A DNA stretch of 40,412 nucleotides from a virus: positions 1 through 40,412 of IMG/VR virus record IMGVR_UViG_3300044979_000013; one strand, given 5' to 3'. This document shows positions 1,382 through 18,483 of the stretch, in pieces. Numbering within the stretch: position 1 is the first letter of the stretch; each line of letters starts with the position of its first letter. Under the pieces are notes generated by a model, which did not search any database, was not told where the DNA came from, and was given only the letters and a program-made list of their open reading frames with translations. The translations under genes and the position numbers were made by a program.

Positions 1382-1390
1382 GGTCCGATC

Positions 1391-2748: not shown

Positions 2749-2751
2749 TGA

Positions 2752-3729
2752 ATGCAGCTATCCGATTACATCACGCAGCTTCAATTTCTGCTGCATGACC
2801 AGACCAACGCGGATTTCAGCCAAGCCGAACTGATAAACGCGATCAACAACGCGCGCGTTGTTACGTCGCTTGACTTTCATTGCTGCCGTGCGATTTACCT
2901 CACCCCGCCTAATGCTGTTGCTAATCCGGGCAGTTACAGCCCGGTCGGCATCATTGCCAATCAGGAAGTCTATTCGCTCAACGGCCAGCCCGGTAATTCC
3001 AATGGCGGGGTGGTTGTTGGCGCGGCGGTGACGGCGGGCGGTGCGAATTACACGTCAGCGGCAACGGTAACGTTTTCTGCTGGTCCGACTGGTAGCGTTC
3101 TGGCGACCGGCACGCCGGTTATCAGCAACGGCGTCATTACCGCAATCAATATGACGGCATGGGGACAGGGTTACTTGCCCGCGATTCCAGGCACCGCGAC
3201 GATTTCCAACCTGCCGACTGTGACGATTGCCGATACGGGCGGCGGCACTGGCGCGACCGCAACAGCCGTGATGTTCAATAACGTGTTCAACGTCATTTCG
3301 ATTTCAAACATCTGGGGCAATCAGCGGTACATGCTGAAATTCCGGGGTTTTACGCTGTTCCAGGCGTACATGCGCTCGCAACTGTTTTTCACGCAGCGGC
3401 CGATCATCTGGACCATTCATGAGCAGACCGGCAAAGTGCTGATTCAGCCACCGCCCGATCAAGGTTATCAGACTGAATGGGATGTGCTGGTGACGCCTGC
3501 TCCATTGGTGCAGTTGGCCGATTATGAGACACAGATTTTACCGCCCTACACGGACGCGGTTGAATATTATGCGGCGCATTACTGCTTGAACAAGTTGCAG
3601 AACTTCAATCAGTCCGAATTTTATCTGAAACTGTACTCGGCGCGGGTGCCTAAGATCATTATCGGCGCTGGCGGGGTTAGGATTCCTAATGTCTATCACA
3701 AGACGTACCAACGCCGCGTTATGAGGTAG
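2752..3729 (+). CDS. Head-tail adaptor (gp4/gp11-like) with inserted beta-repeat domain
   Basis: A 325-aa protein. The N-terminus (MQLSDYITQLQFLLHD, then FSQAELINAINNAR) and the C-terminal part (residues ~180-325, including NIWGNQRYMLK and YYAAHYCLNKLQN) look like podoviral head-to-tail adaptor proteins that sit under the portal. Between them, residues ~85-175 form a Gly/Thr-rich insert with the same GGxxYTSAATVTFS / GGGTGATATAV repeats as the neighbours. The insert splits an otherwise normal adaptor, pointing to a transferred surface module. It lies in a tight + strand operon, with four bases to the next ATG. Confidence 0.7.
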   Translation: MQLSDYITQLQFLLHDQTNADFSQAELINAINNARVVTSLDFHCCRAIYLTPPNAVANPGSYSPVGIIANQEVYSLNGQPGNSNGGVVVGAAVTAGGANYTSAATVTFSAGPTGSVLATGTPVISNGVITAINMTAWGQGYLPAIPGTATISNLPTVTIADTGGGTGATATAVMFNNVFNVISISNIWGNQRYMLKFRGFTLFQAYMRSQLFFTQRPIIWTIHEQTGKVLIQPPPDQGYQTEWDVLVTPAPLVQLADYETQILPPYTDAVEYYAAHYCLNKLQNFNQSEFYLKLYSARVPKIIIGAGGVRIPNVYHKTYQRRVMR

Positions 3730-3732
3730 CCC

Positions 3733-6228
3733 ATGCCGGGACAGGGACTAGGCCAGCCGGGCGGCGAGCAGCGCAGTCAGCAGAAGTTCATCGTTTTCGA
3801 GAATTTCGAGAAGATGAACACGCAGAGCGTGCGGCAGGCGCTCTCGGAAAAAGAATTGGCGTGGCTGGAAAATCTGCAACCGATTGCGCCGAACAATTTG
3901 ATGACGGTCCCGGCTCCGGCGGCAACTGCGCTTGCGACGATTACCGAAAATATCTCGACAATGTTCTATGCCGCGCTGAACGGCGTGGATTATTTCGTTG
4001 CGTTCACGACGGCTGGCAGCGGTTATCTCATCAACATAGCGACTGGCGCGGTCAATCATTTTGCGCCGGATGGCACGTTCAGTTCGCAACCTGACGTGAC
4101 GACATGGGAAGCGTCGCGGCTGCTGATTGCGGATTCGTTAGCAGGCTATGTGACGTTTGATGGCACGCTTTATATTGGCGCTGGTGGCGTATCGCCGAAC
4201 ATCACAGTAACGAATGGTGGCGCAGGTTACGGCACCGCACCGACCGTGACTATTTCAGATGGGTCAGGCACTGGTGCGACAGCCGTCGCGACTGTCGCAA
4301 ACGGCTCGGTGATTGCCGTTACGCTAACCAATCCTGGACACGGCTATCAGGCAAGTGATGTTCTTACCGTCTCATTCGGCACCAGTCCTGGCTCTGGGGC
4401 GACGGCTACGGTGACTATGACTGGTGCCGGAGTTTCCAATTTAACGATTGCTGAAAGTGGAGGGTATTCGGACCCGGGCAACTATGCCCTGGTATTTACC
4501 GGTGGCGGTGGCACCGGTGCCGCCGGTAAAGCGACAGTCTCGTTTAACGGTTCAATTTTTGCTGTCACTTCGGTTCATCTTTACTATCCAGGGAGCGGAT
4601 ATACATCGGCGCCGACAGTGACTCTTCCTGTTTCTCCGGTGTTCGGCGCGACAATTATAAATGCGTTCCTGACGACGGAAAGTGTCGCCACCATTGCTAA
4701 GACGGCTGGTGGCTCGTCGTACACAGCACCGCCAACGGCCACGATCGTCCCTCCCGATGGTATCGGGAGCGGCGCAACGGCTGTCACCACTGAATCCGGC
4801 GGTGCAATGGCGACCATTGGGCTAACGCCGTCGCCGATAGCATCGATCGTTATTACTACCGGCGGCAACTATTCTGTCGCTGCCGGGAATTATGCGCTGA
4901 GTTTCAGCGGGGGCGGAGGATCGGGGGCAACTGGAACGGCAACGCTTGCTATTGATCCATCAGGGCTTACCAGTAACATCGTTTGTGTAAGCACAATCTT
5001 GACATCGGCGGGCACAAATTATGTCACGTCCCCTACTGTTACCGTGAGCGCCGCCGCTACAACGCAAGCAACTTTTCTCGCGCTCATTCAATCACAAGGC
5101 TCCGGCTACGACACGACTGCTAATGTTGTGATTGGCAGTGGTAGCGGAGCTACGGCCATTGCGCATGTCTGGCCCAATATTGTCAGTAGCATCGCCGCCT
5201 ACGCCTACACGACGTTGGCGGTGTTTCAGGGTCGCGTGTGGCTCGGCGGCGGGCCTTTGCTAACGTGGACCGGAACCGGCGCGAGTTACGGCAATGTCGG
5301 CTATGATGATTTCCTTGAAGCCGACGCATCGGGTTCCCTGATAATTTCCGACGCCGACTTGATCCATGCCATCACGGCGCTTCGCGCGCTCAATAATTAT
5401 CTGTTCATCATGGGCGATCAGTCGGTCAAGCAGATTGGAAATATATCGCTCAACTCTGCTGGCACGGTGACGATTTTTACGATCCTAACGCTATCGTCCG
5501 ATCAGGGCACGATTTATCCGAAGTCCTGCATTTCCTACAATCGTGTGTTCATGTTCGCCAACACAAATGGTATTTACGGTGTGTTCGGATCGAGCGTACA
5601 GAAATTGTCGTCGGACATGGATGGCATTTGGAAGTTGGTCGATTTTACGCAGGTTGTGCAGGGCGCTCTTGCCGACGTTAATGCAATTCACAACGCGGTG
5701 TTTTTGATCCGGTATAAAGACCCGCTATCGACCACGCGGTCGATCTTGCTGACGTTCGACGGCAAGCGATGGTTTGTGATGGCGCAGGGCAATTCTCTGA
5801 CAGCGATTGCCACATCGGCTGCATTCGCAACTGGCGCGCTATCGCTATACGGCAGTTCGGGGCCTGATGTGACAAATTTGCTGGCCGCACCGGCTACAGC
5901 CGTGGCATTCAAAATTCAAAGCTCGCTGACAAGCCACGGTAATGCGGTGCAGGGTAAGAAAGCGATCCGTGCGGGTTTCACGTCCCAGGTTGGCGGCAAT
6001 AGCTCGGTGACGATGACCGTGGATACCGAATCCGGGCTGGGGCCAAGCCGCACCATGGATATTGCAACCGGCGTGTCACTCGTCGGCGGATCAAACGACG
6101 CGAATAATGCGGCGATCAGCAACGCCGGTATATTCTTGGGCCTGACCATCACCGGCACGCTGGCTGGTTTCACCATGACAAATCTGATAATTGAGAGTCA
6201 GGAAACCGCGCTTTGGAAAGGTGCGTGA
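3733..6228 (+). CDS. Tail nozzle/tubular tail protein with long beta-repeat insertion
   Basis: An 831-aa protein in the place of the tail nozzle of podoviruses (T7 gp12-like). Residues ~1-145 and ~490-831 look like the nozzle core, with beta-propeller-like segments LLIADSLAGYVTF, LFIMGDQSVKQIG and ILLTFDGKRWFVM. Residues ~150-480 are tandem imperfect repeats such as GGAGYGTAPTVTISDG and GSGYTSAPTVTL, rich in Gly, Ala, Thr and Val and almost free of Lys and Arg. The repeats probably form surface beta domains that may bind sugars or the host surface. The core function is inferred from order and composition. Confidence 0.7.
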   Translation: MPGQGLGQPGGEQRSQQKFIVFENFEKMNTQSVRQALSEKELAWLENLQPIAPNNLMTVPAPAATALATITENISTMFYAALNGVDYFVAFTTAGSGYLINIATGAVNHFAPDGTFSSQPDVTTWEASRLLIADSLAGYVTFDGTLYIGAGGVSPNITVTNGGAGYGTAPTVTISDGSGTGATAVATVANGSVIAVTLTNPGHGYQASDVLTVSFGTSPGSGATATVTMTGAGVSNLTIAESGGYSDPGNYALVFTGGGGTGAAGKATVSFNGSIFAVTSVHLYYPGSGYTSAPTVTLPVSPVFGATIINAFLTTESVATIAKTAGGSSYTAPPTATIVPPDGIGSGATAVTTESGGAMATIGLTPSPIASIVITTGGNYSVAAGNYALSFSGGGGSGATGTATLAIDPSGLTSNIVCVSTILTSAGTNYVTSPTVTVSAAATTQATFLALIQSQGSGYDTTANVVIGSGSGATAIAHVWPNIVSSIAAYAYTTLAVFQGRVWLGGGPLLTWTGTGASYGNVGYDDFLEADASGSLIISDADLIHAITALRALNNYLFIMGDQSVKQIGNISLNSAGTVTIFTILTLSSDQGTIYPKSCISYNRVFMFANTNGIYGVFGSSVQKLSSDMDGIWKLVDFTQVVQGALADVNAIHNAVFLIRYKDPLSTTRSILLTFDGKRWFVMAQGNSLTAIATSAAFATGALSLYGSSGPDVTNLLAAPATAVAFKIQSSLTSHGNAVQGKKAIRAGFTSQVGGNSSVTMTVDTESGLGPSRTMDIATGVSLVGGSNDANNAAISNAGIFLGLTITGTLAGFTMTNLIIESQETALWKGA

Positions 6229-6229
6229 T

Positions 6230-6580
6230 GTGCCGCAGTTCTCGCCCGATCAATGCACGTTCAACGATGTGCCCGGCATGGGCCAGTGGGATAATTCACA
6301 TTATCGCGAGCACTTGCAATTCGTACAAGTTCTCGCGGCGCTCTCGCCCCCTATTGAAATACCGAATTATGATTTTTCTCAAATGCTCACGGCTGGCGGT
6401 GCCATAAAATCAATCTGGACTACGCACGCGCAAGCCCATGCTTTTCTTGACCAGATAACGGGCGTGACGGAAGTGGACTATACCGAGTTTAGGTACGACA
6501 ACGAAGGCGACTTCTACAATTTTCAATCCTACCACTCGGTCGGCCACGCGCAGATAAGACAGATTTTGGGGATAGTGTGA
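6230..6580 (+). CDS. Hypothetical virion-region protein
   Basis: A soluble protein of about 116 aa. I place the start at GTG 6230 because GGAAAGG lies just upstream. An in-frame TTG at 6191 would add 13 residues inside the preceding gene. Segments QWDNSHYREHLQFVQVLAAL and VDYTEFRYDNEGDFYNFQ look folded and genuine. It sits between nozzle and ejection genes with overlapping starts and stops, so a small tail or connector component is likely. No family recognised. Confidence 0.6.
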   Translation: MPQFSPDQCTFNDVPGMGQWDNSHYREHLQFVQVLAALSPPIEIPNYDFSQMLTAGGAIKSIWTTHAQAHAFLDQITGVTEVDYTEFRYDNEGDFYNFQSYHSVGHAQIRQILGIV

Positions 6581-6900
6581 TGTTCGGTAATTACAACGCA
6601 ACGTTCGGGCTGAACTTTCCGGTCGATAGCCAAGGTGGCCTCTTCGGCCCGACTGCTCCGGTGCCCGGCATTACCCCGCCCGGCCCGGATGCTGGCGGCC
6701 TAACCGCTGCCCCGCTAGACCCAAAAGGAAGCCCGGCGGCAGGGGTAGGGGGTCCAGCCCCTTCACCTACCGCCCCTAGTCCGCTAGCCTCGCCCATGGC
6801 CGCCGGGCAGGCAACGCAGGCCGCTGTGGCGACAGATCAGCCTAATCCGGCTCCGGCGGCTGGTGTGGGCAGTCCGTTTGCAGCTAAAGGTGGGTTGTAA
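6580..6900 (+). CDS. Pro/Ala/Gly-rich hypothetical structural protein
   Basis: A protein of about 106 aa starting at the ATG that overlaps the previous stop (TGATG). Almost the whole sequence is Pro, Ala and Gly rich (for example GVGGPAPSPTAPSPLASP), so it is probably disordered. Its ATG-stop overlap with the next gene (6900) supports translational coupling in the ejection-protein block. Function unknown. Confidence 0.55.
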   Translation: MFGNYNATFGLNFPVDSQGGLFGPTAPVPGITPPGPDAGGLTAAPLDPKGSPAAGVGGPAPSPTAPSPLASPMAAGQATQAAVATDQPNPAPAAGVGSPFAAKGGL

Positions 6901-7610
6901 TGGCTTTTGTCGATACCGGCGGCGCGGGCGCGGCACCGAACGCTCCAAGCACCGGTCTAAGCACGTCCAGTCCGCTTAGCTTGGGCAGTCTCGGCACGGC
7001 GGCTGCGGGGGGCGCCGGGCTTGCGGGCTTGCTGACCTTGGGCAGTACGGCGCTTCCTTGGGAGTATGGCGCGCTAACGGCCAATGTGCCGCAACTTGAA
7101 CAGGAAGCGACGACGCTTGAGGGGCAGGGCCAGACGCTAACCGGCCAAGGCTCGCAGGCGCTGTCGATGGCGCAGAACGGGCAATTGACGCAGCCGCAAC
7201 AGGCGGCGCTTGGTCAATATCAATCTGGGCTGACCAATACGGCGGACCAGATTTATGCTTCGATGGGCCGCAACGCCAATCAGGACACGTCATATATTTC
7301 GACGCAGGCCGACATTGACGCCAAGGTGAATGCGATGGCGCAGGCGGAGATTCAAAGCACGATTCAGCTTGGCTTGGGCGAAACGCAGGCGGGCAACAGC
7401 TATGACAGCACGGCACTCGGATTTGAGAATGCCGCCAATCAGGCGCTGATTGCGGCAGGTCAAGCGCAGGTGCAGTCGGACGCCGCTTATAGCAGTGCAT
7501 TATCTGGCGTGTTCTCGGCAGTCGGGACTATTGCGGGCGGCGCTGTCGGCGCTATGGCCGGTGGACCTGTCGGCGCGGTTGCCGGCGCAACGATTGGTAG
7601 CAAACTGTAA
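6900..7610 (+). CDS. Internal virion (ejection) protein candidate, small
   Basis: A 236-aa protein with Gly/Ala-rich ends and a Gln-rich helical centre (residues ~65-190). Hydrophobic glycine-zipper-like segments lie at residues ~30-50 and ~205-232 (GAVGAMAGGPVGAVAGA). This mix of helical middle and membrane-active glycine segments, just before two large helical proteins, is typical of podoviral ejection proteins that leave the head and form a channel across the host envelope. No sequence family is recognised with certainty. Confidence 0.6.
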   Translation: MAFVDTGGAGAAPNAPSTGLSTSSPLSLGSLGTAAAGGAGLAGLLTLGSTALPWEYGALTANVPQLEQEATTLEGQGQTLTGQGSQALSMAQNGQLTQPQQAALGQYQSGLTNTADQIYASMGRNANQDTSYISTQADIDAKVNAMAQAEIQSTIQLGLGETQAGNSYDSTALGFENAANQALIAAGQAQVQSDAAYSSALSGVFSAVGTIAGGAVGAMAGGPVGAVAGATIGSKL

Positions 7611-9145
7611 TGCCCGAAGTCAGCACAGGCGAGACTTATAGCCCGTTCGGCTGGTCGGTGGACGATCCCGAACATGCGCCCCCTGGATCGACTACGCCGG
7701 GCGTGACTAGTCCGGGCGGCACTTCTCCGCTTGCACCGCCGCCGTATCTTGCGAAATACGGCAAGCAGATCGAGGGCGTGATTGCCGAGGACCGCGCGGC
7801 GTTTGACGAGTATCAAAAGAAGGCCGCGCCTGCGCAGGAGCGGTTGGCACACACGCTAGAATCGCCACTTCCAAAGCCGCCGGATCAGCAGCCGGTAAAG
7901 CCGCCGCCCGATCCCGCCACCTATCGGCAGGACGCCATGCAATTCGCAAGCGCCATGGCGGTGCTTGGCGCTGTCGCCGGCCGTTTTACGCGCCGAGCGG
8001 GGAATGCTTCACTCAATGCTTTTTCCGCCGCTATTAACGGTTGGAATAAAGGCAACGTGGAGGCGTATGAGCAGGCGACGAAGCAATGGGAGGAAGCCAC
8101 TAAGCAGACCATCGACAACAACAAGATGGTGCTCGACAAGTACAAGGAGGTTTTGGAAAATCGCAAGCTCAATATCGATGAGCAGATGGCGAGCATTCAA
8201 TTGCTTGCCAGTCAGTACCACGACAAGATGACATTCGACGCAGCGGCGGCGAAGAATTATACGCTGGTTGCGAGCATTTACGAAAAGAACCAAAAATACA
8301 CCGACAAGGTGCAGGCGACGGCGGATAAGTTGAGAGAAAAGCACGCCGAGCAGGATGAGAAAAATAAGGCTAATGCAAAATGGCTCGCCAGCCCGCCGGG
8401 ACAAGCGTACATCGCGCAACTTCCGCCGGAAGAACAGGTAAAATACCGTGGCTTTATTGAGCAGTACGGCTCTGGCACGCCGCGCTCGGCGCCTGCTATG
8501 GCGTTAAAGCAGTTCATCAAAGAGGAAACAGAAAGGCTAGGACATCTGCCGTCGCCAGAGGCGATCACGCAATTTGCCGCGCACTATGGCTCGGAAGTAA
8601 AAGCCACGCGCGATTTCGGAACCGGCACGCAGGGCAACGCGATCCGATCTTTCAGCGTCGCGCTCGATCACTTGGACGTTGCCGAACAGCTTGGCCGCGC
8701 GCTGCAAAACGGTGACGGTCGAACATTGAACATGCTGCGCAATGAGGCCAAACAGCAATTCGGTTGGGAAGGCGCGGTTGATTTCAATTTCGCCAAAAAA
8801 ATTGTCGGTGATGAAATCACTAAGTCCATTCTAGGCTCCGGTGCTGGCACCGGACAGGATCGCGAGGACATTCAAAAGGCTTTCAATGCCGCGAACAGCC
8901 CCGCACAGTTAGAGGGTGTTGTCCGCACGGCGAAACGCCTCATGGCCGGGCAGTTGCGCGGGCTGAAACAGCAATATGAGCAGACGACGGGGCAGCACGA
9001 TTTTGATAGCCGGTTGTCGGAACCTGCGCGGCGGGAATTGGTGAATCTTGGAGCTATGTCACAGCCAGTAGCGACTAGCGCAGGTCCGCCAGATGAACAC
9101 AGTGGCACGACATCATCGGGCGTTACATGGAGCGTTAAGCCGTAA
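7610..9145 (+). CDS. Internal virion (ejection) protein candidate, medium
   Basis: A 511-aa protein. The N-terminus (1-100) is Pro-rich and probably disordered. Residues ~105-270 are strongly helical and coiled-coil-like (NKGNVEAYEQATKQWEEATK, KYKEVLENRKL), followed by a folded region with RSFSVALDHLDVAEQLG (~345-361). It lies between the two other ejection candidates and its start and stop codons overlap both neighbours by one base. The role as an internal head or ejection protein is inferred from order, length and helicity. No transglycosylase motif is visible. Confidence 0.6.
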   Translation: MPEVSTGETYSPFGWSVDDPEHAPPGSTTPGVTSPGGTSPLAPPPYLAKYGKQIEGVIAEDRAAFDEYQKKAAPAQERLAHTLESPLPKPPDQQPVKPPPDPATYRQDAMQFASAMAVLGAVAGRFTRRAGNASLNAFSAAINGWNKGNVEAYEQATKQWEEATKQTIDNNKMVLDKYKEVLENRKLNIDEQMASIQLLASQYHDKMTFDAAAAKNYTLVASIYEKNQKYTDKVQATADKLREKHAEQDEKNKANAKWLASPPGQAYIAQLPPEEQVKYRGFIEQYGSGTPRSAPAMALKQFIKEETERLGHLPSPEAITQFAAHYGSEVKATRDFGTGTQGNAIRSFSVALDHLDVAEQLGRALQNGDGRTLNMLRNEAKQQFGWEGAVDFNFAKKIVGDEITKSILGSGAGTGQDREDIQKAFNAANSPAQLEGVVRTAKRLMAGQLRGLKQQYEQTTGQHDFDSRLSEPARRELVNLGAMSQPVATSAGPPDEHSGTTSSGVTWSVKP

Positions 9146-11166
9146 TGCCTACCGTCTCGGTTAATGGGCAGGATGTTGCTGTCGGCGATGAGTTTATGAA
9201 GCTCACGCCCGAACAAAAAAACTCGACCGTTGATGAAATTGCCAAATCGCTGAAAACCAAAGCCACAGCGAGCAAAACCGAACGATTTGAAACTGGATTC
9301 ATGGACCCGGTTTATGGGGCCGCGCAGATCGGCGCGCGAATGACGCCGGAGGGTGCTGGACTCGTTGGCGATGGTTGGGAGGAATATCAAAAAGAACTGC
9401 AGGGTACAGTTGATAAAACCGTGCGGGAACGCGAACAAAAATACGAGAAAACCGCACCGCAGGGCATGGATTGGATGCGTGCTGCCGGGAATATGGTTAA
9501 TCCCATGAATTATGCTGCACTGCCACTGGGCGGCATTACAGGTGGCGTTGCGACCGGCGCTCTCAGTGGCGCATTACAGCCGGCTACGGGGCCTGATTTT
9601 GGCAAGGAAAAATTGGGGCAAATAGCTGTGGGGGGCACTATCGGCGGCATTCTGGGTACTGCTGGCAAAGCAATTGGCTATGGCGTGCGTGAACTCGGCT
9701 CTTATCTTGCCCGCGAGTATCCTGAAAATGTGATGACGCAGGCGGTGCAGTCGATTTTGCGGCGAATTCATCAAGATGAAAAGGCCGGCGGCGTAACTGC
9801 AACGCAGGCCATCGACTTAATCAATGAGGCCGCTAAGGAAGGTAAGCCGATGACGCTTGCTGACGTAACTGGAAAAAATACCGAGCGTCTAGCGGGAAAT
9901 GTTTATCGCCAAGGCGGCGAAAGCGCGGCTATTGCCGACAAGTTTTTGCAGACTCGCGACGAGGGGGCAGCACAGCGCATGGCCGCTGATATTTCCAAGT
10001 ACGTTAAGGGCGGCGATTCGATGTTTAAGACGACTGAGGCGCTGTTTAAGGCTCGTAGTGCTGCCGCGCGCCCGGCGTACAAAATCGCAATGGACCCTGA
10101 GCGCATTGTTGATTCGCCTCGCCTGCGACAATTCTTGAACGATCCGACTGTAAAACAGGGCATTGGCGCCGGAATTGAAAGTCAGCGGTTGGAGGCTCTT
10201 GCGGCCGGTGAAAAATTCAATCCAAATTCGGCACAATATATCGTTAGTGATGTGAACGGCCTTCCTGTCGGGACGAAGGGTGTGCCCAATATGCAAGTTC
10301 TGGACGCGGTAAAGCGCGGCTTGGACGCCGGGGTAGAATCCGAGCGCGATGCGGTAACCGGCCGTCTTAGTCAGCGCGGGGTCATGTTGGATCGTGTTCG
10401 GTCGGCCTATGTTGATGAGTTGGACGCGCTTAATCCAGACTATGCGGCAGCTAGAACGGCATGGGCTGGTCCATCCGCTAGTCTTGATGCGCTACGCGCT
10501 GGCCGTAGCGTGTTCAAAAACTCGCCCGAACAAAATGCGGCCGACTTCGCAAAACTTCCGGCGGGCCAGCAGGAATTTTATAGACTCGGCGTTGCCGACA
10601 TGCTGCGTGAACGTCTTGCCAAAACTGGCATTAGCGGGGATGAGGCCAAAGCTCTCATTAAAAATCCGTGGGTTCGGGATCAGCTAAAGCCCATTTTCCG
10701 TAGCCCAGAAGATTTTGAGGGTTTTGTGAATGCGGTGGGCAACGAAAGCAAAATGTTCGCCAAGAATGTAGCTATCAGGAAGAACTCATTGACTGCCGAG
10801 CGGCTGGCAGAGGATCAATCCAGCGACAATTTTATGGCCGCAGGCGGTGCCAAGATTGCCGAGAATATAGCGACCGGCAGTTGGTTGTCTGCCGCCAAAA
10901 ACGCTATTCAGATGTGGCGCGATCTTGGCATCCGGGCTAACCCCAAGCTTAACGAGCAGATCGCCAAGATTCTGTTTCAAACGCCTATTGACGCGCAAGG
11001 TGAAGTCGGACAGCGCCTTACCGGACAGTTCGCGGGTGCCGGGCCGACTAATCGGCTTGTGCCTGCCGCTATCGTTGCTGAGACGGCTGGTGGGGCGCTA
11101 ACGCCCGGCGCGTATTCGGGCCTTTCACAGCTAGGCAGCAGCCCGCTTGCCGCGCAAGGGCAATAA
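9145..11166 (+). CDS. Internal virion (ejection) protein candidate, large
   Basis: A 673-aa mostly helical protein. A glycine-rich hydrophobic segment at ~125-170 (GGITGGVATGALSG ... GGTIGGILG) could cross or perturb a membrane. The middle (~230-560) has the pattern of phage internal proteins, with PAYKIAMDPERIVDSPRL, SAQYIVSDVNGLPVG and YRLGVADMLRERL. It is the last of the three-gene block, so it likely corresponds to the largest DNA-ejection protein. No lytic transglycosylase catalytic motif is obvious. The name is inferred. Confidence 0.6.
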   Translation: MPTVSVNGQDVAVGDEFMKLTPEQKNSTVDEIAKSLKTKATASKTERFETGFMDPVYGAAQIGARMTPEGAGLVGDGWEEYQKELQGTVDKTVREREQKYEKTAPQGMDWMRAAGNMVNPMNYAALPLGGITGGVATGALSGALQPATGPDFGKEKLGQIAVGGTIGGILGTAGKAIGYGVRELGSYLAREYPENVMTQAVQSILRRIHQDEKAGGVTATQAIDLINEAAKEGKPMTLADVTGKNTERLAGNVYRQGGESAAIADKFLQTRDEGAAQRMAADISKYVKGGDSMFKTTEALFKARSAAARPAYKIAMDPERIVDSPRLRQFLNDPTVKQGIGAGIESQRLEALAAGEKFNPNSAQYIVSDVNGLPVGTKGVPNMQVLDAVKRGLDAGVESERDAVTGRLSQRGVMLDRVRSAYVDELDALNPDYAAARTAWAGPSASLDALRAGRSVFKNSPEQNAADFAKLPAGQQEFYRLGVADMLRERLAKTGISGDEAKALIKNPWVRDQLKPIFRSPEDFEGFVNAVGNESKMFAKNVAIRKNSLTAERLAEDQSSDNFMAAGGAKIAENIATGSWLSAAKNAIQMWRDLGIRANPKLNEQIAKILFQTPIDAQGEVGQRLTGQFAGAGPTNRLVPAAIVAETAGGALTPGAYSGLSQLGSSPLAAQGQ

Positions 11167-11177
11167 GGGTATGTATC

Positions 11178-11381
11178 TTGCCAGATGAAGTGAACAAACC
11201 GGACGAAGCCAATGGGGCGTCTGAGGATTTCATGACTACGCTAGAAGATGGCGTGAAGCAGGTCTTGAAGAATCGGAAGGCGACGGCTTCTGAGCGCATG
11301 GCTGCGGTGCAGGCAGGCGTAAAATTGCTTGCTATCAGGCACAAAATTAGCGGTGATGGCGAGAAGGGCTTCTTTGAATGA
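11178..11381 (+). CDS. Small hypothetical protein
   Basis: A 67-aa acidic protein if translated from TTG 11178. An internal ATG at 11232 with GAGGA close upstream would give 49 aa. The core LEDGVKQVLKNRKATASERMA...AGVKLLAIRHKI looks helical and genuine. Its stop overlaps the next ATG (ATGA). Function unknown. Confidence 0.5.
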   Translation: MPDEVNKPDEANGASEDFMTTLEDGVKQVLKNRKATASERMAAVQAGVKLLAIRHKISGDGEKGFFE

Positions 11382-11638
11382 CCGATGTTCGCCCGCTCTT
11401 TGCTGACAAACAGCCCGGCCCGGCAGTCGAAGATATTGGCGCGACATACGTTGAAACGGCGCGGGCCATTGCTTCCATCTGCGCCACGAGGGCGCTCCTG
11501 ATGCTTGCCGTTCTGACCGGCGCGGCAATCTGGCTTTTCACAGCTTATGACCCGACGCGCGACCGCATGATCGCCGCCGTTGCATTCTCCATCGTTTTTC
11601 TTGGGCCGCTCACGGCCCTCTACGCGCGCAAAGGATAG
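11378..11638 (+). CDS. Two-helix membrane protein, holin-like candidate
   Basis: An 86-aa protein with two predicted membrane helices at about residues 40-58 (LLMLAVLTGAAIWLF) and 64-83 (MIAAVAFSIVFLGPLTALYA) and a basic tail (ARKG). Small two-helix phage proteins are often holins or antiholins. The main lysis cassette lies 5 kb downstream, so it may be an accessory membrane protein. It overlaps the previous stop by four bases. Confidence 0.55.
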   Translation: MTDVRPLFADKQPGPAVEDIGATYVETARAIASICATRALLMLAVLTGAAIWLFTAYDPTRDRMIAAVAFSIVFLGPLTALYARKG

Positions 11639-11641
11639 CTC

Positions 11642-12124
11642 ATGAAATATCTTGGACGAATCGTTGCTGGACTGGCCCTTGCTGTTACGCTCGGGGCGGC
11701 AATTTCGTTAGGCCAGTCAATCCAGCTTATCACTCCTGGTGCCGGGCTTGGATCGAACAATACCTTTAGCGGTGCCAATACGTTCTCCGGCGTGACCACG
11801 TTTTCCAATCAGATCGTTTCCACCGCCGGACTGCCGACTATCGCCAGCGGCGCGTGTGGTACCACTACCAACGGTGCAATTGTTGCGGGCAGCACCAATC
11901 AGTCAGGGCAAATCACTATTGGTTCGGCCACGACGACGACTTGCACAGTGTCTTTCTCGGCGACTTTGAGTGTCGCGCCGGATGCCTGCATTCTTTTCCC
12001 GATGAATGCGACGGCGGCTGCGACCGGCACGACTGTTGCGCGAGTGGCCGCCCCGACAACGGGCGGTTTTGTCATCACCGGATCGGCGCTCGCCAGCGCA
12101 AACTACGGCTACATCTGTCTGTAA
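11642..12124 (+). CDS. Exported fibre-like protein with Sec signal peptide
   Basis: A 160-aa protein. Residues 1-27 look like a Sec signal peptide (basic MKYLGR, hydrophobic IVAGLALAVTLGAAIS). The mature part starts with the phage-fibre-like pattern GLGSNNTFSGANTFSGVTTFS, followed by Gly/Thr-rich beta segments and three Cys. The NTFSGxNTFSG pattern is common in phage tail fibres, which normally lack signal peptides. It is the first of several exported genes in this block. Export and fibre nature are both inferred. Confidence 0.6.
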   Translation: MKYLGRIVAGLALAVTLGAAISLGQSIQLITPGAGLGSNNTFSGANTFSGVTTFSNQIVSTAGLPTIASGACGTTTNGAIVAGSTNQSGQITIGSATTTTCTVSFSATLSVAPDACILFPMNATAAATGTTVARVAAPTTGGFVITGSALASANYGYICL

Positions 12125-12136
12125 CGGAGGCATCAA

Positions 12137-12517
12137 ATGCGAACACGGATTATCGGCGCTGCTGCAATCCTGATCTTGGGCGCGATCGCTGCTGGAATTT
12201 TCACGGATCGCCCGTCATGGGCGCAGCTTGGCTCGGCATCGCCCGTTGCAACGGCGGTAACGGTTGGCACCACATCAGTTCAATTGCTGGCGGCCAACGG
12301 TTCGCGGCATGGGGTGCAAATCTATAACCAGTCCGCCAATGTCCTGTCGGTTCTTCCGGGCACGACCGCCGCCGTGGCAAGTGCTGCTGGTACAATCAAT
12401 GTCGCGGCGAGCGGCGGTATGCTGGTCATTACCTGCACGCCGACGTTTCCGTGCGGCAACGCCTTTCAGGGCATTGCATCAGGGGCGAGCAGTGCGATCA
12501 CTGTCTGGGAATACTGA
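12137..12517 (+). CDS. Exported small beta protein
   Basis: A 126-aa protein with a likely signal peptide (residues 1-30, MRTRIIGAAAILILGAIAAG, then an SWAQ site). The mature ~95 residues are beta-rich (TSVQLLAANGSRHGVQIYNQ ... SSAITVWEY). The same layout recurs at 12736 and 14042, suggesting three related beta-sandwich domains. A good AGG ribosome site precedes the ATG. The stop overlaps the next ATG. Function unknown; a virion surface or host surface role is possible. Confidence 0.6.
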   Translation: MRTRIIGAAAILILGAIAAGIFTDRPSWAQLGSASPVATAVTVGTTSVQLLAANGSRHGVQIYNQSANVLSVLPGTTAAVASAAGTINVAASGGMLVITCTPTFPCGNAFQGIASGASSAITVWEY

Positions 12518-12732
12518 TGCCGCGCCACAACCTCAATGATCGGTTCACACCGGGCGGCTCAATGGAGCCACGGCTCAACCCGGAAATCTGCGATACGCGG
12601 CTGAATGCCAATCTGGGGCCAAAGTTGCCGCGTCCGCTGGTCCGGGAAACAAATAGCGGCGCGGTGTATGCTGGCGATACGGCGGCCCGGCGCCGCGCGA
12701 TCGGCCTGCCATCCCGTTTCACTAAGGACTGA
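12517..12732 (+). CDS. Small hypothetical basic protein
   Basis: A 71-aa Arg/Pro-rich soluble protein beginning at the ATG overlapping the previous stop (TGATG). Segments RFTPGGSMEPRLNPEICDTRLNA and DTAARRRAIGLPSRFTKD look coding. No signal peptide or membrane segment, unlike both neighbours. It may be a small tail or connector component. No family recognised. Confidence 0.5.
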   Translation: MPRHNLNDRFTPGGSMEPRLNPEICDTRLNANLGPKLPRPLVRETNSGAVYAGDTAARRRAIGLPSRFTKD

Positions 12733-12735
12733 TTC

Positions 12736-13131
12736 ATGCGCTTGCTGCGTTGGGCCGCCATAGCACTCACGCTCGCTGTCGGCCCGGCGGTCGCACAGCA
12801 TGTCGGCCCGATGGGTCCGGCGGTCACGCTGTCGGTCACCACGGGCGGCACATGGCAGCTTATGTTTGCCGCGAACGGAAATCGCACGACGCTCTGGATT
12901 GAGAATTATTGCTCCGCTACGACACAGGGTGTTACGGCGGAAAGCCTGTTTGTCTATTTTCTGCCGCCCGCGACTGCCGCGCCAACAACGGCGAGCGGTC
13001 CTAGCCTCGGCGCATTTGAACTGGCGACCTGCGGCAGTCAGGTTTTCACTGGCAGCTACATGACCACGCAGGCCGTGTACGTGCTTGGCGCGACCACCGG
13101 TCACCAATTCACGGCATGGCAGACACAGTGA
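12736..13131 (+). CDS. Exported small beta protein
   Basis: A 131-aa protein with a clear signal peptide (MRLLRWAAIALTLAVGPAVAQ, cleavage likely after AVA). The mature domain (VTTGGTWQLMFAANGNRTTLWIENY...) resembles the products at 12137 and 14042 in layout and has two Cys. It is probably a paralogue of the same beta domain. It overlaps the next gene's start and lies in the exported fibre block. Role unknown. Confidence 0.58.
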   Translation: MRLLRWAAIALTLAVGPAVAQHVGPMGPAVTLSVTTGGTWQLMFAANGNRTTLWIENYCSATTQGVTAESLFVYFLPPATAAPTTASGPSLGAFELATCGSQVFTGSYMTTQAVYVLGATTGHQFTAWQTQ

Positions 13132-14021
13132 GGCTCATTCTAGCACTTGCGGTTGCCCTGTGGGCTACGGCAGCGACCGCTCAGAACATGGGCGGCGGCA
13201 TCAATAATCCCGTTTCGATTGGCAGCGCCACGCCTAGCGGGCCTGCTGGTGGGGTTCTCAGCGGCACATATCCGAATCCAGGATTTGCCTCGCCATTGCC
13301 GCTCGGCATAGCGCAGGCCACATCGCTTGCGATTGGCGGCTGCACGATTGGCAGTAACGTTCTTTGCGTGACCGGCGCAAGCGCGCTCGGCAATACGGTG
13401 ATCGGAGCGGGATCGGCTATTACGTCATCCGGTCCTGGCGGTGCGCTCGGCTCCAATGCTTTCAATTCAACTGCCTTTGCGCCGCTCGCTTCCCCGACCT
13501 TTACCGGCACCGTGACTATCCCAACGCCGTTCACGCTCGGCGCAGTCTCAGTGACCGCGACCGGCACGCAGCTTAATTATTTGAATGGCGCAACGGGCAC
13601 GACCGGCACGACGACGACCAACCTTGTTTTCTCGACTTCGCCAACATTTGTAACACCGACGCTTGGGGTTGCTTCTGCAACTCAAATTGTAGTTACTGGC
13701 GGCAGTTTTGGCGCGACTAGCGGCGGATGTTACCTCGACGGTAACCAAGGATTTTCATGCGTCGCTAAGACCGGCGCGGTTAACGATTTAATTTTGTTCA
13801 GCGTTGCTGGTGGCGCCATTTTGCGGAATCCTACGGGAACAAATAATGTCGTAATGGCGGGATCAATCACGTCCGGCAGCACAATCTCTGCGACAGGAAA
13901 TTTCTACATTGGGGCAACCAAAGGCGTCACCTGCTCAGGCGCACTCACGGTAATCGCCAGCGTTACGATCACAGGCGGCATTATCACGGCGGCAACCGGG
14001 ACAGGCGGCACATGTTCATAA
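13116..14021 (+). CDS. Exported tail fibre-like protein
   Basis: A 301-aa protein. A GTG at 13128, overlapping the preceding TGA as GTGA, gives an ideal signal peptide (MRLILALAVALWATAATAQ); ATG 13116 would add four residues. The mature part has GGVLSGTYPNPGFA, a motif frequent in phage tail fibres, then ASPTFTGTVTIPTPF and long Gly/Thr/Ser-rich beta stretches. A fibre with a Sec signal peptide is unexpected for a virion part. It could be secreted or attached at the host surface instead. No enzyme motif is seen. Confidence 0.62.
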   Translation: MADTVRLILALAVALWATAATAQNMGGGINNPVSIGSATPSGPAGGVLSGTYPNPGFASPLPLGIAQATSLAIGGCTIGSNVLCVTGASALGNTVIGAGSAITSSGPGGALGSNAFNSTAFAPLASPTFTGTVTIPTPFTLGAVSVTATGTQLNYLNGATGTTGTTTTNLVFSTSPTFVTPTLGVASATQIVVTGGSFGATSGGCYLDGNQGFSCVAKTGAVNDLILFSVAGGAILRNPTGTNNVVMAGSITSGSTISATGNFYIGATKGVTCSGALTVIASVTITGGIITAATGTGGTCS

Positions 14022-14041
14022 TGTGGTATGAGCGGTGACGC

Positions 14042-14362
14042 ATGGGAACCGGCGCTCAATCAACACAGCCAAGCCCAAACGCACTCACAACGCCAACCGT
14101 CAGTAACGCTAGCGTGGCTGTTGCGACGGTCAATCCGCAGCGCGCCGGATTGTACGTGTTTAATCCGTCCGCGACGATAACGCTTTGGGTGTCGCCAACC
14201 GGCACCGCTGCCGCCGTGAACGGCGCTGGCTCGGTCGCGATCCAGCCATTGCAAGGCGTCATGTTCGGGCCGCCAAATACGCCGCCATGGACAAACGGCA
14301 TGAACGCGGTTGCATCATCGGCTGGATCGAACGTCATTGTAATTCTTGAGTATTATCAATGA
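14042..14362 (+). CDS. Small beta protein of the fibre block (no signal peptide)
   Basis: A 106-aa protein resembling the mature parts of the 12137 and 12736 products (PQRAGLYVFNPSATITLWVSP ... VIVILEYYQ) but without a signal peptide. It may be a cytoplasmically retained, virion-incorporated paralogue. Its stop overlaps the next ATG (ATGA). Function unknown. Confidence 0.58.
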   Translation: MGTGAQSTQPSPNALTTPTVSNASVAVATVNPQRAGLYVFNPSATITLWVSPTGTAAAVNGAGSVAIQPLQGVMFGPPNTPPWTNGMNAVASSAGSNVIVILEYYQ

Positions 14363-16095
14363 ATCGCCCTCTGCTGGCGATCATTGCGGTTCTGGTCGCC
14401 GCTTGTGCAGCACAGGCACAGCAGCCTGTGACGGTGATTGGCCCTATCACGCCGGGCGATTGCCCGTTCTTTAATTCGACGACGGTTATCAAAGACAGCG
14501 GCATTCCGTGCAATGGAAGCGGCGGCGGTTTTGTTGTTGGTCCCTCCACGTCCGTCATTGGTCACATTCCGTTCTTCAACAACACGACCGGAAATTTGAT
14601 TGCGGACAGCGGCATTGCCACTTCGACTACGCCGGTATCGAGCGGCAATCAGGTTTATAATCTTGCTTTATTGGGGACGCCGGGAACTTCTGGTGTCAAC
14701 ACGGGGTTGTTGGGCGGCATCAGCGTTCTTCAAAACGGGGCTGGAAACGTAAACAGCCTATCACTTCCATTCAGCTATAATTACTTCAAAGTTTTTTCTG
14801 ATGGCATCGTGTCCAACGCTGCGGTGTCGGCGGTCACGATTGATTATTTCTTCGGCAACGGCGCAAGCGGAAGTTTGGCGACGGGCAGCCGATCTGCTCT
14901 TGAAGTGAATCTCACGCTAGCGGGGACTACTTCAAATTCCGGCGGCCTTTATACGGCACTTGGCGCGCTGGCAACCGCGACAGCCCCTGATAGTAACGGA
15001 AATTTGGAAGCCTTCGGGTCAACCGCCGTCCTAAAGAACGGTGCGACCGGTTATAACCTTTTGTCGTCAATTGACGCAGAAATTTCGGCCCGCACCGGAT
15101 CGACTGTCGTTAGCAAAATTATCGTTGGGATCGGCGGCGATCAATTCGACGCGGTTCGAGGGTCGTCGTATAATATTATGCTTGGCTTTAGCAGCCTCGG
15201 GGGTGCGACGGCGACTTATGACGATGGCATACGCTTTTGGGATAGTGCCGGTGCTGGCGTCTTTCCATTTTCTACCAGCGCAACTCTGCTTAATGCAACA
15301 GTCGCGTCCGGCACGCCGACGGTCAAAAGCTTTATTGACTTTTCCGCACTGGCTTGTTCTGGGGGCTATGAGATAAAGTTTTCGCAGTTCGATGTTGATT
15401 GTGGCGGCAGTCTTTACCTGTTTAACAACACCGCCGCGATTTCCGGTACGCAGCAGCAAAGTCCGTCGCAGTTCTTCTACGGGCAAGGCTGGAAAACAAA
15501 CTCGACGGCAGGTTCGCAGCAGGTCACGGCGCAGGTTTATCTTCAACCAATACAGGGTACGTCGGCGCCCACGAGCGAACTTATTTGGCTGTTCTCAGTC
15601 AATGGCGGCAGCTATACGCAACAAATGGCGCTGTTTTCTTCTGGCGTACTCAACCTCGCCACAGGATTTCAGATTGCAGGCGCAGCCACATCCGGAAACG
15701 TGCTGCGCGGCAACGGAACAAACTTTGTCAGCGCACAACTTTCATGTGCCGATCTTTCGACGCCGTGTCTCACGTCGCTAAGTACACTGACGATCGGCAC
15801 GCACCTGACCGGAACGAGCTACAACGGCTCGGCTCCGGTGACGATCGCTACTGACGCAACCAACGCAAATACGTTTTCAACTATCGTTGCGCGTGACAGC
15901 AATGGTAGCTTTGTAGCCACTGACGTATTTGCCAGCGGATTCATAGGTACAGCGGCAGCCCCAACAGTCAGCGCGGCCCAAATTGGGTACGGCGGCACTA
16001 CGGCTGCATCGAGTAATTGCGGTTCATTATCTGGTGCCGCCGGTTGCGTGGTTATCAATGTGGCTGGTACAACACATTACGTTCCGTATTACTAA
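14359..16095 (+). CDS. Large tail fibre/spike-like protein with signal peptide
   Basis: A 578-aa protein. Residues 1-21 look like a signal peptide (MNRPLLAIIAVLVAACAAQAQ). Residues ~20-60 contain the fibre pattern PFFNSTTVIKDSGIPC / IPFFNNTTGNLIADSGI. The C-terminus has LTGTSYNGSAPVTIATDATN and DSNGSFVATDVFASGFIG, typical of tail-fibre repeats, and ends GTTHYVPYY. It is probably the receptor-binding fibre or spike. A Cys in the signal region (VAACAAQ) weakly hints at lipidation but lacks the usual lipobox spacing. The signal peptide on a fibre is the odd part. Confidence 0.65.
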   Translation: MNRPLLAIIAVLVAACAAQAQQPVTVIGPITPGDCPFFNSTTVIKDSGIPCNGSGGGFVVGPSTSVIGHIPFFNNTTGNLIADSGIATSTTPVSSGNQVYNLALLGTPGTSGVNTGLLGGISVLQNGAGNVNSLSLPFSYNYFKVFSDGIVSNAAVSAVTIDYFFGNGASGSLATGSRSALEVNLTLAGTTSNSGGLYTALGALATATAPDSNGNLEAFGSTAVLKNGATGYNLLSSIDAEISARTGSTVVSKIIVGIGGDQFDAVRGSSYNIMLGFSSLGGATATYDDGIRFWDSAGAGVFPFSTSATLLNATVASGTPTVKSFIDFSALACSGGYEIKFSQFDVDCGGSLYLFNNTAAISGTQQQSPSQFFYGQGWKTNSTAGSQQVTAQVYLQPIQGTSAPTSELIWLFSVNGGSYTQQMALFSSGVLNLATGFQIAGAATSGNVLRGNGTNFVSAQLSCADLSTPCLTSLSTLTIGTHLTGTSYNGSAPVTIATDATNANTFSTIVARDSNGSFVATDVFASGFIGTAAAPTVSAAQIGYGGTTAASSNCGSLSGAAGCVVINVAGTTHYVPYY

Positions 16096-16106
16096 AGGGA
16101 ACTGAC

Positions 16107-16349
16107 ATGAAATCACTTATCATTGTTGCGCTTCTAGCCTTGTCCGTGCCCGCTCTTGCGCAGCAACCGCCATCGCAGGTTGACCCGGTATTGATGCAGC
16201 AGGCAATTGCGGCATTACAGGCACAGCGCAATCGCGCACTTGACGAGGCTGCGCAGGCGGAAGCGCAACTCGGCAAAGAAACTGCCGAGAATGCCGACCT
16301 GAAAAAGCAGATCGAGGCGCTCAAGCCAAAAGAGCCGGTGGAGAAATGA
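16107..16349 (+). CDS. Exported coiled-coil protein, possible spanin
   Basis: An 80-aa protein: N-terminal signal or anchor (MKSLIIVALLALSVPALAQ), then a Gln/Ala/Glu/Lys coiled coil (LQAQRNRALDEAAQAEAQLG ... LKKQIEALKP). A membrane-anchored periplasmic coiled coil directly before the endolysin fits an Rz-like inner-membrane spanin, though no Rz1 partner is evident here. Alternatively it is a secreted periplasmic protein. The preceding AAAGGGA is a good ribosome site. Its stop overlaps the endolysin ATG. Confidence 0.55.
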   Translation: MKSLIIVALLALSVPALAQQPPSQVDPVLMQQAIAALQAQRNRALDEAAQAEAQLGKETAENADLKKQIEALKPKEPVEK

Positions 16350-16837
16350 CCGCAAACGTATGGCCCCTGCAATCGCAGTGCCCCGCCTTCTACGGCGATC
16401 CCCGCACGGCGGGCTGGCTGGCATCAAACACCATTGATGTGTTGTGCCCTTGGCCGCTTAAAATGGGTGAGCTATCGGTGCCGCACATCCTGATTCACAG
16501 GAAATGTGCCGACAGCTTGACGCGCGTACTCGGCAGTATTTGGGACGCTACGGGACATAACTTGCCGCTGATCCAGCAGCTAAAATACGATCAGTTTAGC
16601 GGCAGTTACAATCTGCGGCTGATCCGTGGCAGTGTATCAGATATGTCAATGCACGCCTTCGCGGCGGCGATCGATTGGGATGCTGGAGACAACGCGCAGC
16701 ATTCTCAGAAACATTTGCTTCAAGACGACAGCCTGCTTGTGGTAAAGTTCAAGGAAGAAAGCTGGATATGGGGCGGCGACTGGTCGCCGGGTTCAATCGA
16801 CGCGATGCACGTGCAGGCCGCACGTGTACATCCATAG
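16346..16837 (+). CDS. M15-family peptidase endolysin (peptidoglycan L,D/D,D-peptidase)
   Basis: A 163-aa protein with the zinc-peptidase signature of the M15 (VanY/DacB-like) family: SMHAFAAAID (residues 101-110, H103 and D110), WGGDW (142-146) and DAMH (152-155, H155). These would bind zinc and cleave peptide cross-links in peptidoglycan. There is no signal peptide, so release depends on a holin. It lies between the coiled-coil protein and a two-helix membrane protein, forming the lysis cassette. Confidence in the family is high. Confidence 0.85.
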   Translation: MTANVWPLQSQCPAFYGDPRTAGWLASNTIDVLCPWPLKMGELSVPHILIHRKCADSLTRVLGSIWDATGHNLPLIQQLKYDQFSGSYNLRLIRGSVSDMSMHAFAAAIDWDAGDNAQHSQKHLLQDDSLLVVKFKEESWIWGGDWSPGSIDAMHVQAARVHP

Positions 16838-16847
16838 GGGAAATAAC

Positions 16848-17198
16848 GTGCTTACAATCTCACCAGGCGCCCGATTTATAATCGGTATCGTCATCACGAC
16901 CGCCATCGCGATCAGCGCCGGCACCATCCACCTTACTCACGCGATCCCAGACGCATGGATACCAGTGGTGATCGCATGGAGTGGAATCATCGCCGTTGTC
17001 GGATCGGCGATTCAGACGAGCCTTCAAGGTCTTGGCCTGACGAATGCCAACCGTATCGCGGCGGCGGCACCGCTGTCCGCAACTGATAAGATTGCCATTG
17101 CAGCATCGGCCCCCGAAGTCAGTCAGATCGTCACGACTGCGGCCATTGCAAATGCGGCAGGGCCGCTCGGTGACGGCGCGAAAGTGGTATCGAAGTGA
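16848..17198 (+). CDS. Holin-like membrane protein
   Basis: A 116-aa protein from GTG 16848, preceded by GGGGAA. The upstream ATG at 16824 would overlap the endolysin. Two hydrophobic segments at ~residues 9-30 (FIIGIVITTAIAISAGTI) and ~38-58 (IPVVIAWSGIIAVVGSAI) are followed by an Ala-rich soluble tail. Placement directly after the endolysin suggests a holin that permeabilises the inner membrane. The family is not recognised. The stop overlaps the next GTG (GTGA). Confidence 0.6.
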   Translation: MLTISPGARFIIGIVITTAIAISAGTIHLTHAIPDAWIPVVIAWSGIIAVVGSAIQTSLQGLGLTNANRIAAAAPLSATDKIAIAASAPEVSQIVTTAAIANAAGPLGDGAKVVSK

Positions 17199-17419
17199 CA
17201 CTGTTCGACATAATGGGGATAGCCTCTCGTATTCCATTCGATCTTGTGCAAAAGCTTCAAGCTGACATGCCAAAGATTCAACAGTTAATGGCGTTGGAGA
17301 AGCAGGCGGTGCCTCACCTAACAGCGTTGGAGCCTATAGCTCAGGAGGCGCAGGCTGTGTGGAACTCAATCAGTCCTGACGTGACGGCACTTATAACAAC
17401 TGTGGAGAAGCAACCATGA
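17195..17419 (+). CDS. Small helical hypothetical protein of the lysis block
   Basis: A 74-aa amphipathic helical protein starting at GTG 17195 overlapping the previous stop and ending in an ATGA overlap with the outer membrane protein gene. No membrane helix or signal peptide (IPFDLVQKLQADMPKIQQLM). Four-base overlaps on both sides support co-translation. Function unknown. Confidence 0.55.
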   Translation: MTLFDIMGIASRIPFDLVQKLQADMPKIQQLMALEKQAVPHLTALEPIAQEAQAVWNSISPDVTALITTVEKQP

Positions 17420-18063
17420 AGAAGATTCTGCTTGCGCTGATGTTGCTGGCAACCCCGGCATGGGCGACCGATATGCCGGTTAAGGTCGCGCCTGTAGCCG
17501 GCGTACCCGATCCATGTACGACCTCACAATGCACCGGCTGGTACGTTGGCGGCGGCTTCGCGGGCAACGGCACCAATGCCGACATTCTCGGCAACGGCAT
17601 TTCCGGCTCGGTCTTTGCGGCGGGTGCGATTCCATTCGTAAACGGCGGCTGGCAATACTGGAACGGCAAGTTGTTCCTTGCGGCCGAGGTTGGCGTCGGC
17701 GATCAGTTGAACATCGGGGGCCTGACCGGCAACGAGACTGGCGTGCTTGGCTATCAGGAGGTCCAGTTCGGCGGCACGCTGTCCGGTATCCTTGGCACCA
17801 ATTCCGCGCCAGTGACCGTCCCTACCGTTCTCAGCGCGGACCTGATCTCGCTGTACGTCGCAATGGGCGTCATCGAGCGGTCCTTCGCAAATGGATGGGA
17901 AACCGGTGCTGGAGCCAAATTCGCCATCGCTCCACATCTGTTTCTGGACATTGGCTATCGTTACGCCAACTACGGCGTGGCGGCGCAGGCGATCAGCCCA
18001 GCATTGACCGCGACGTACAACAATGAAAATCTCGTCCGCATTTCGGTTAACTACAAGTTCTAA
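17416..18063 (+). CDS. Phage-encoded outer membrane beta-barrel protein
   Basis: A 215-aa protein. Signal peptide at residues 1-17 (MKKILLALMLLATPAWA), then VKVAPVAGVPDP and GWYVGGGFAGN, as in rhizobial Omp25/Omp31-like porins. Alternating beta strands end in the outer-membrane signal VRISVNYKF with a terminal Phe. This predicts insertion in the host outer membrane by the BAM machinery. Lambda Lom and similar phage proteins are precedents. A role in masking the receptor or altering the envelope is inferred. It lies directly after lysis-type genes. Confidence 0.75.
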   Translation: MKKILLALMLLATPAWATDMPVKVAPVAGVPDPCTTSQCTGWYVGGGFAGNGTNADILGNGISGSVFAAGAIPFVNGGWQYWNGKLFLAAEVGVGDQLNIGGLTGNETGVLGYQEVQFGGTLSGILGTNSAPVTVPTVLSADLISLYVAMGVIERSFANGWETGAGAKFAIAPHLFLDIGYRYANYGVAAQAISPALTATYNNENLVRISVNYKF

Positions 18064-18072
18064 CCGGCGGCG

Positions 18073-18483
18073 ATGCCAGAATTTGAGCAGCGCGGGTCAG
18101 TTCCGGTCCCTGACCCGACTAGACTCACTACCGACGCCGTTGCTCTCGCCAAGGCAGAGATAGAAAAGCTTTTTGACACCAAATTGAACGGCTTTCGGGA
18201 ATTAGTCACTGAGAAGTTCGCCGGCCGCGATACGGCACTAGCCGCAGCGCTCAAGGCGGCTCAAGAACTAGTTAAGCAGCAGAACGACAGCAATACGCTG
18301 GCGATCGATAAAGCCGGAGCCTCGTTCGCAAAGCAGATTGACAGTCTGGACGAAAAGATTGCGGACCTGAAAGAGCGCGTGGGTGAGCAGGCCGGGAAAA
18401 ATTGGGCGGCGGTGGGTGCCTATATTATAGGTGCCGCTGGTGTGGTCGCGATGGTCGTTGCCGCGTTTTGGCATCATTCATGA
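18073..18483 (+). CDS. Coiled-coil protein with C-terminal membrane anchor
   Basis: A 136-aa protein: helical coiled-coil region (~residues 25-105, ALKAAQELVKQQNDSNTLAI, KQIDSLDEKIADLKERVGEQ) and one C-terminal membrane helix (~112-131, AAVGAYIIGAAGVVAMVVAAF). Tail-anchored coiled coils of this type are common in phage lysis regions. It could be a spanin-like or membrane-associated accessory protein. It is the last + strand gene before convergent - strand genes, whose final stop overlaps it. Confidence 0.6.
   Translation: MPEFEQRGSVPVPDPTRLTTDAVALAKAEIEKLFDTKLNGFRELVTEKFAGRDTALAAALKAAQELVKQQNDSNTLAIDKAGASFAKQIDSLDEKIADLKERVGEQAGKNWAAVGAYIIGAAGVVAMVVAAFWHHS

Follow-up and report, generated by a model that had tools for sequence, protein, structure and literature searches.

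The tail fibres of tailed phages are generally taken to be cytoplasmic proteins that join the particle before lysis: they usually lack a signal peptide, and both their folding and their assembly take place in the reducing cytoplasm. The addition of tail fibres and tailspikes to particles in vitro, in extracts, is a classical observation with T4 and P22. Other described phage systems include (i) PblA and PblB of Streptococcus mitis phage SM1, tail proteins that, besides their place in the particle, occur on the bacterial surface, PblB not being known to have a signal peptide and leaving its Gram-positive hosts through the lysis proteins; (ii) lambda Lom, T5 Llp and the Cor proteins of phi80 and N15, envelope proteins with signal peptides that are neither fibres nor virion parts; and (iii) inovirus coat proteins, which enter the virion by way of Sec and signal peptidase, with filamentous assembly at the inner membrane. 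Here, we analyzed a late gene module of predicted exported, fibre-like proteins of a soil phage and its uncultured relatives, starting from the IMG/VR record IMGVR_UViG_3300044979_000013, which lies complete in the window (the whole stretch of 40,412 bases) and has a podovirus-like late gene string. We consider the chances evenly balanced that this module provides receptor-binding fibres which are exported, oxidised in the periplasm and joined to the virion at or after lysis.

In the proposed route, receptor-binding fibres and their small partners would be made late as Sec precursors, exported and cut by signal peptidase I, and the mature proteins would fold in the periplasm with disulfide bonds. 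Once holin and endolysin open the cell, the exported fibres would meet particles that still lack fibres and dock onto them by the conserved segment at their mature N terminus, the tailed virion thus being completed outside the cytoplasm. Given the T4 and P22 precedent, such a late joining step is plausible. The fibre architecture and domains, the late-operon position, the paired cysteines and the selected signal peptides are all supported; we infer that the periplasm is the probable folding site, and likewise that the fibres attach to the virion and when they do so. The first-pass annotation had left the role open between decoy, appendage and assembly in the periplasm or at lysis; without proving the point, the evidence favours receptor-binding fibres whose attachment to the particle takes place outside the cytoplasm. 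That a tailed phage completes its virion extracytoplasmically, with Sec-exported, periplasm-oxidised fibres attached only at lysis, by a route that two or more podophage lineages evolved or acquired, is a broader proposition that we put just under even. Our literature search, whose coverage left out most subscription journals, found no report of exported tail fibres in a tailed phage.

Relatives were collected from IMG/VR with the capsid protein as query, because single-protein scans with 9145 and 14359 found nothing there; this gave 80 loci at 70-95% identity, and downstream regions were taken from 28 contigs plus one short contig. A public phage search with 14359, 12736 and 12137 gave no match, and the annotated phage relatives L002-L006 showed no comparable module. 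L133, a contig of 44% G+C assembled from a different metagenome, shares the border genes, and four of the genes in its slot encode signal peptides. With the N terminus of the exported L054 fibre as query, exported fibres were found in further contigs; the 15 tested contigs with L054-type fibres, many of them fragments, gave no match to the window capsid protein. A second podophage lineage (L170-L177) carries exported fibres between capsid and tail genes; the four contigs examined have one gene order in common, that of another podophage type, with a phrog_212 capsid in one contig and phrog_394 and phrog_376 tail proteins in one.

The large proteins of the module are fibre-like, a conclusion supported by their architecture and by the domains on relatives that also have signal peptides. 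The fibre motifs reported in the first pass were recovered: NTFSGANTFSG in 11642, GGVLSGTYPNPG in 13128 and GTSYNGSAPVTI in 14359. The large exported fibre (family 3, 578 amino acids, 14359-16095, + strand) is matched by its relatives at the N terminus only, over 7-13% of its length; beyond the signal peptide and a stretch of roughly 35 residues, QPVTVIGPITPGDC...KD.G..C, members of the family have little in common, which is the conserved N-terminal segment and hypervariable body typical of fibres and tailspikes. The same conserved start and variable body are found in 13128-14021 (family 13, + strand). Since conservation extends over the full length of most other virion genes, these two are the window's hypervariable fibre-like genes; 9145 has unlike alleles, and the small gene 6580 is matched in only some relatives. 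A third exported fibre-like protein (160 amino acids, 11642-12124, + strand) bears the NTFSG repeats and has homologous DNA in G014 only. All six signal-peptide open reading frames of the module are convincing coding genes in a single + strand operon. They belong to a + strand gene string that runs from 395 to 18483, tightly packed with overlaps or short gaps throughout, in the order capsid (395), large tail-type protein (3733), virion genes to 9145, two small genes, exported module, endolysin (16346), putative holin and barrel (17416). As expected of tail fibres or tailspikes, the module thus occupies a late-gene position beside virion genes, as do the exported fibres of the second lineage in their capsid-tail interval. 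The large virion-region protein at 9145-11166 differs among close relatives, is matched in few of them and has a distant match in Rhizobium phage RHph_I1_23.

The main rival, which we regard as possible but tentative, holds that the exported fibres are not in the particle: they would be periplasmic or freed at lysis and would bind or deacetylate surface glycans or receptors, sparing progeny loss on debris or preventing re-infection of infected cells. Such a role would suit the lysis genes close by in the window's lineage, the esterase domains (SASA in L133, a putative one in L099) and lectin-like domain (L111) on exported relatives, and the envelope genes in the module, i.e., the adjoining outer membrane barrel of the window and the O-antigen-ligase-like genes of relatives, which fit a surface-modifying function. 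Moreover, G011, G012, G013 and the second-lineage G443 have exported and non-exported fibre-like genes together, and the exported ones may therefore do another job. These envelope genes and mixed gene sets weigh against receptor-binding fibres, as do two results on the window proteins themselves: Pfam and PHROG searches matched the window fibres to no family, and the AlphaFold2 (AF2) model of 14359, with a predicted local distance difference test (pLDDT) score of 33, is unusable and gives no view of a trimeric beta-structured shaft. However, the conserved mature N terminus, ahead of a variable body, resembles a docking segment, and free fibres would leave the window with no other hypervariable fibre-like gene as receptor-binding protein. 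The second-lineage genes, moreover, sit among virion genes, and a late-operon position is a poor fit for early-acting exclusion.

The barrel gene itself (17416-18063, + strand) encodes an outer membrane beta-barrel protein with a signal peptide (PF13505 OMP_b-brl, 4.8e-8) and has relatives in four other phages; a plasmid search with it gave no match. A barrel gene adjoining lysis genes recurs in L090, L092, L096 and L098. The O-antigen ligase-like membrane proteins lie in the module of L087 (6284-7192), L088 (7045-8070), L092 (11063-12097), L093 (880-2010), L098 (7986-9137) and L099 (9914-10768); three tested matched PF04932 Wzy_C, and none is present in the window. They could be host glycan modifiers or oligosaccharyltransferases acting on the exported fibres.

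Tail-fibre domains on exported relatives bear on a second alternative, which we judge unlikely: cell-surface adhesins of host or mobile origin that the phage carries as cargo and that are fibre-like by composition only. The window exported proteins are rich in Ser, Thr, Ala, Gly and Asn, and this composition, with the missing family matches, is what such adhesins might look like. Yet L127, which shares the family-3 N terminus, carries Peptidase_S74 (7.6e-12) in a region resembling PblB-type proteins, L133 carries a SASA esterase (1.7e-28), both match PHROG tail fibres (6e-20 and 6e-18), and L162 has a Phage Tail Collar domain (1.4e-14). Cargo adhesins also fit poorly with the constant late-operon place in many phages and with a search of 398 sampled genomes of one phylum, where one type of exported fibre had a single marginal match, which stops interrupted.

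Export of the module proteins is a well supported prediction. With our simple check for an n-region, an h-region and an AXA site, Sec/signal peptidase I-type signal peptides are predicted in six of the nine genes from 11642 to 16837 (11642, 12137, 12736, 13128, 14359 and 16107) and in the barrel gene; this is far above chance, because shuffled window proteins pass at only 3.1%, and the upstream virion genes of the window gave no call by the same test. All six signal peptides named in the first-pass annotation were thus found again, but the cluster is not unbroken, as 12517 and 14042, which it did not mention, lie inside the stretch without one. Cleavage of 12137 is likely at SWA^Q, around residue 30, as in its relatives; the predicted site of 11642 is less certain; and 13128 is called from its GTG start, whereas from the alternative ATG at 13116 an Asp stands before the h-region. 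Among the 26 contigs in which a homologue of 11378 or its small neighbour was recognisable, a signal peptide is called in 61 of the 181 genes that follow the border gene, compared to 3/235 before it and 1/81 on the opposite strand; the downstream count takes in lysis and barrel genes, and several miscalled starts in it conceal further signal peptides.

These signal peptides appear to be under selection, as comparisons within families support. In families 3, 5 and 13, mean identity is 0.35-0.40 in the signal peptide and 0.58-0.75 in the mature part (its first 35 residues for the 14359 family, its first 12 for the 13128 family); the 12137 family has diverged about equally in both (0.37 and 0.40). 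Every member of the families compared nevertheless retains its call, including 12 of 12 found in the 14359 family, whereas under simulated random mutation to 35% identity the call survives in 8-22% of runs. As in substrates of Sec and signal peptidase I, a basic n-region, a hydrophobic core and an AXA-type site are kept despite divergence, and AXA^Q-type sites recur immediately ahead of the conserved mature segment. The first pass had proposed that relatives lacking the hydrophobic N terminus would count against export; one does lack it, the close relative G004/L089, whose fibre without a signal peptide stands in the equivalent place, after a homologue of 14042; that a fibre fills this place speaks, in turn, for a fibre nature of the exported proteins.

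The cysteines point the same way, by statistics that share no criteria with the signal-peptide predictor. The five window fibre and beta-type proteins have 4 (11642), 2 (12137), 2 (12736), 6 (13128) and 8 (14359, in 4 close pairs) mature cysteines. An even count is found in 41 of 43 exported clusters (70% identity) but in only 62 of 163 same-phage controls (18/59, 22/54 and 22/50 in the control classes; Fisher 2e-12), and under the strictest clustering in 22 of 24 exported clusters (2e-6). The cysteines are closely paired, with a median gap of 21 residues within pairs and 70 between them in a set that may contain a few gene-caller errors. They are also gained or lost jointly: 10 of 12 members of the 14359 family have the full N-terminal pair and the other 2 have neither cysteine, and in the 12137/14042 family cysteines are present in the exported branch and mostly missing from the cytoplasmic one. 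The second-lineage motif NPTCPTRPAGDSSNACASTAFV can be aligned with the sequence APTPxxGDNDTSIATTAFV, found in fibres that lack a signal peptide, and both of its cysteines fall on Ala/Ile positions, in a short alignment of a region that no Pfam model covers. Even, closely paired and jointly gained or lost cysteines are what disulfide-bonded periplasmic proteins show, and point to an oxidising compartment. In G019, a terminase-like gene outside the main slot is immediately preceded by an exported family-3 fibre (L125, 5983-8238) that has lost its N-terminal cysteine pair.

Both the cleavage sites and the paired cysteines speak against the quite improbable alternative that the hydrophobic N termini stay uncleaved, as membrane-interacting tips or anchors of cytoplasm-assembled proteins, although cleavage is predicted only and some n-regions are long (L107-L109). 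That wrong starts or chance hydrophobic N termini produced the pattern is very improbable, even with a home-made predictor and the ambiguous 13116/13128 start, given the retention of the calls across divergent relatives and the independent cysteine statistics. Lysogenic-conversion cargo also ranks low, since the window has no recognised integrase and no prophage turned up in an isolate, the lifestyle itself being unproven.

The module is not all fibres. Paired cysteines, conserved signal peptides and the tail-fibre domains of relatives bear out the first-pass view of exported, fibre-like proteins, but 12137, 12736 and 16107 are not fibres: the first two are small beta-type proteins and the third is small and coiled-coil-like. 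On the + strand, 12137-12517 (126 amino acids) is the exported branch of family 0, placed by an alignment of both branches; its AF2 model has a pLDDT of 80, and a fold search with it gave no match below 0.001, only weak jelly-roll/cupin-like ones. The cytoplasmic branch is represented by 14042-14362 (106 amino acids, no signal peptide, no cysteine, + strand), which overlaps the start of 14359 by 4 bases; in the window, as in 9 of 13 loci, the gene for the exported fibre comes directly after this gene or a homologue. Between the beta-type genes lies 12517-12732 (71 amino acids, + strand), of family 2, none of whose members in seven phages has a signal peptide. Next comes 12736-13131 (family 5, 131 amino acids, + strand), with a mature part about 75% identical and a signal peptide about 40% identical among relatives, and both cysteines conserved. 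Last in the module is 16107-16349 (80 amino acids, no cysteine, + strand), with weak coiled-coil-type Pfam and PHROG matches only; similar small exported proteins occur at L096 5625-5837 and L098 6112-6321. By analogy, these coiled-coil-like proteins could be periplasmic fibre chaperones, loosely like T4 gp57A.

The borders of the module are a small membrane protein without a signal peptide on the left (11378-11638, + strand), conserved at 33-70% identity just upstream of the module in 11 of 11 relatives compared, and the endolysin on the right (16346-16837, + strand; phrog_17001, 2.8e-18; PF13539, 2e-8). The adjoining gene (16824-17198, + strand) is a putative holin by its hydrophobic segments and its place beside the endolysin; it has no convincing family match. 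Farther away, a small serine recombinase (33918-34502, PF00239) stands directly before gene 34495, with homologues in G004, G006 and G013 and dimer resolution or DNA inversion as possible roles. The capsid protein, compared with about 85,000 species genomes, matched four contigs of metagenome-assembled genomes from mixed phyla and no prophage of a named isolate, and this search therefore does not fix the host. The four (L116-L119) are labelled Acidobacteriaceae, Paludibacterium, Nitrosomonadales and Chloroflexi and are probably mis-binned phage contigs. An IS1595-type transposase within the phage (32573-33520) most resembles alphaproteobacterial plasmid copies, a host hint.

If the proposed route holds for abundant soil phages, virion maturation gains an extracytoplasmic step, the host Sec, signal peptidase and disulfide machineries count among the phage's assembly factors, and disulfide-stabilised fibres offer robust binders from a new source. 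The signature of signal peptide, fibre domain and even cysteine count lends itself to a survey of all viral genomes and is also a warning to annotators, because such genes can pass for host surface proteins.

Compared with the known systems, the module is closest in architecture to Caudoviricetes tail fibres and tailspikes, with which it shares the conserved N-terminal segment and variable body, the late-operon position and, on relatives, S74, Collar and SASA domains; it differs in the cleavable predicted signal peptides and paired cysteines, the absence of a signal peptide being a usual but not a defining trait of tail fibres. PblB-type dual-role proteins reach the surface without a signal peptide, unlike the module proteins. 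The likeness of lambda Lom to 17416 is one of fold class only, both being beta-barrels. And whereas the exported virion proteins of inoviruses serve filamentous assembly, those predicted here belong to tailed phages whose capsid, tail and lysis genes follow an HK97-like order.

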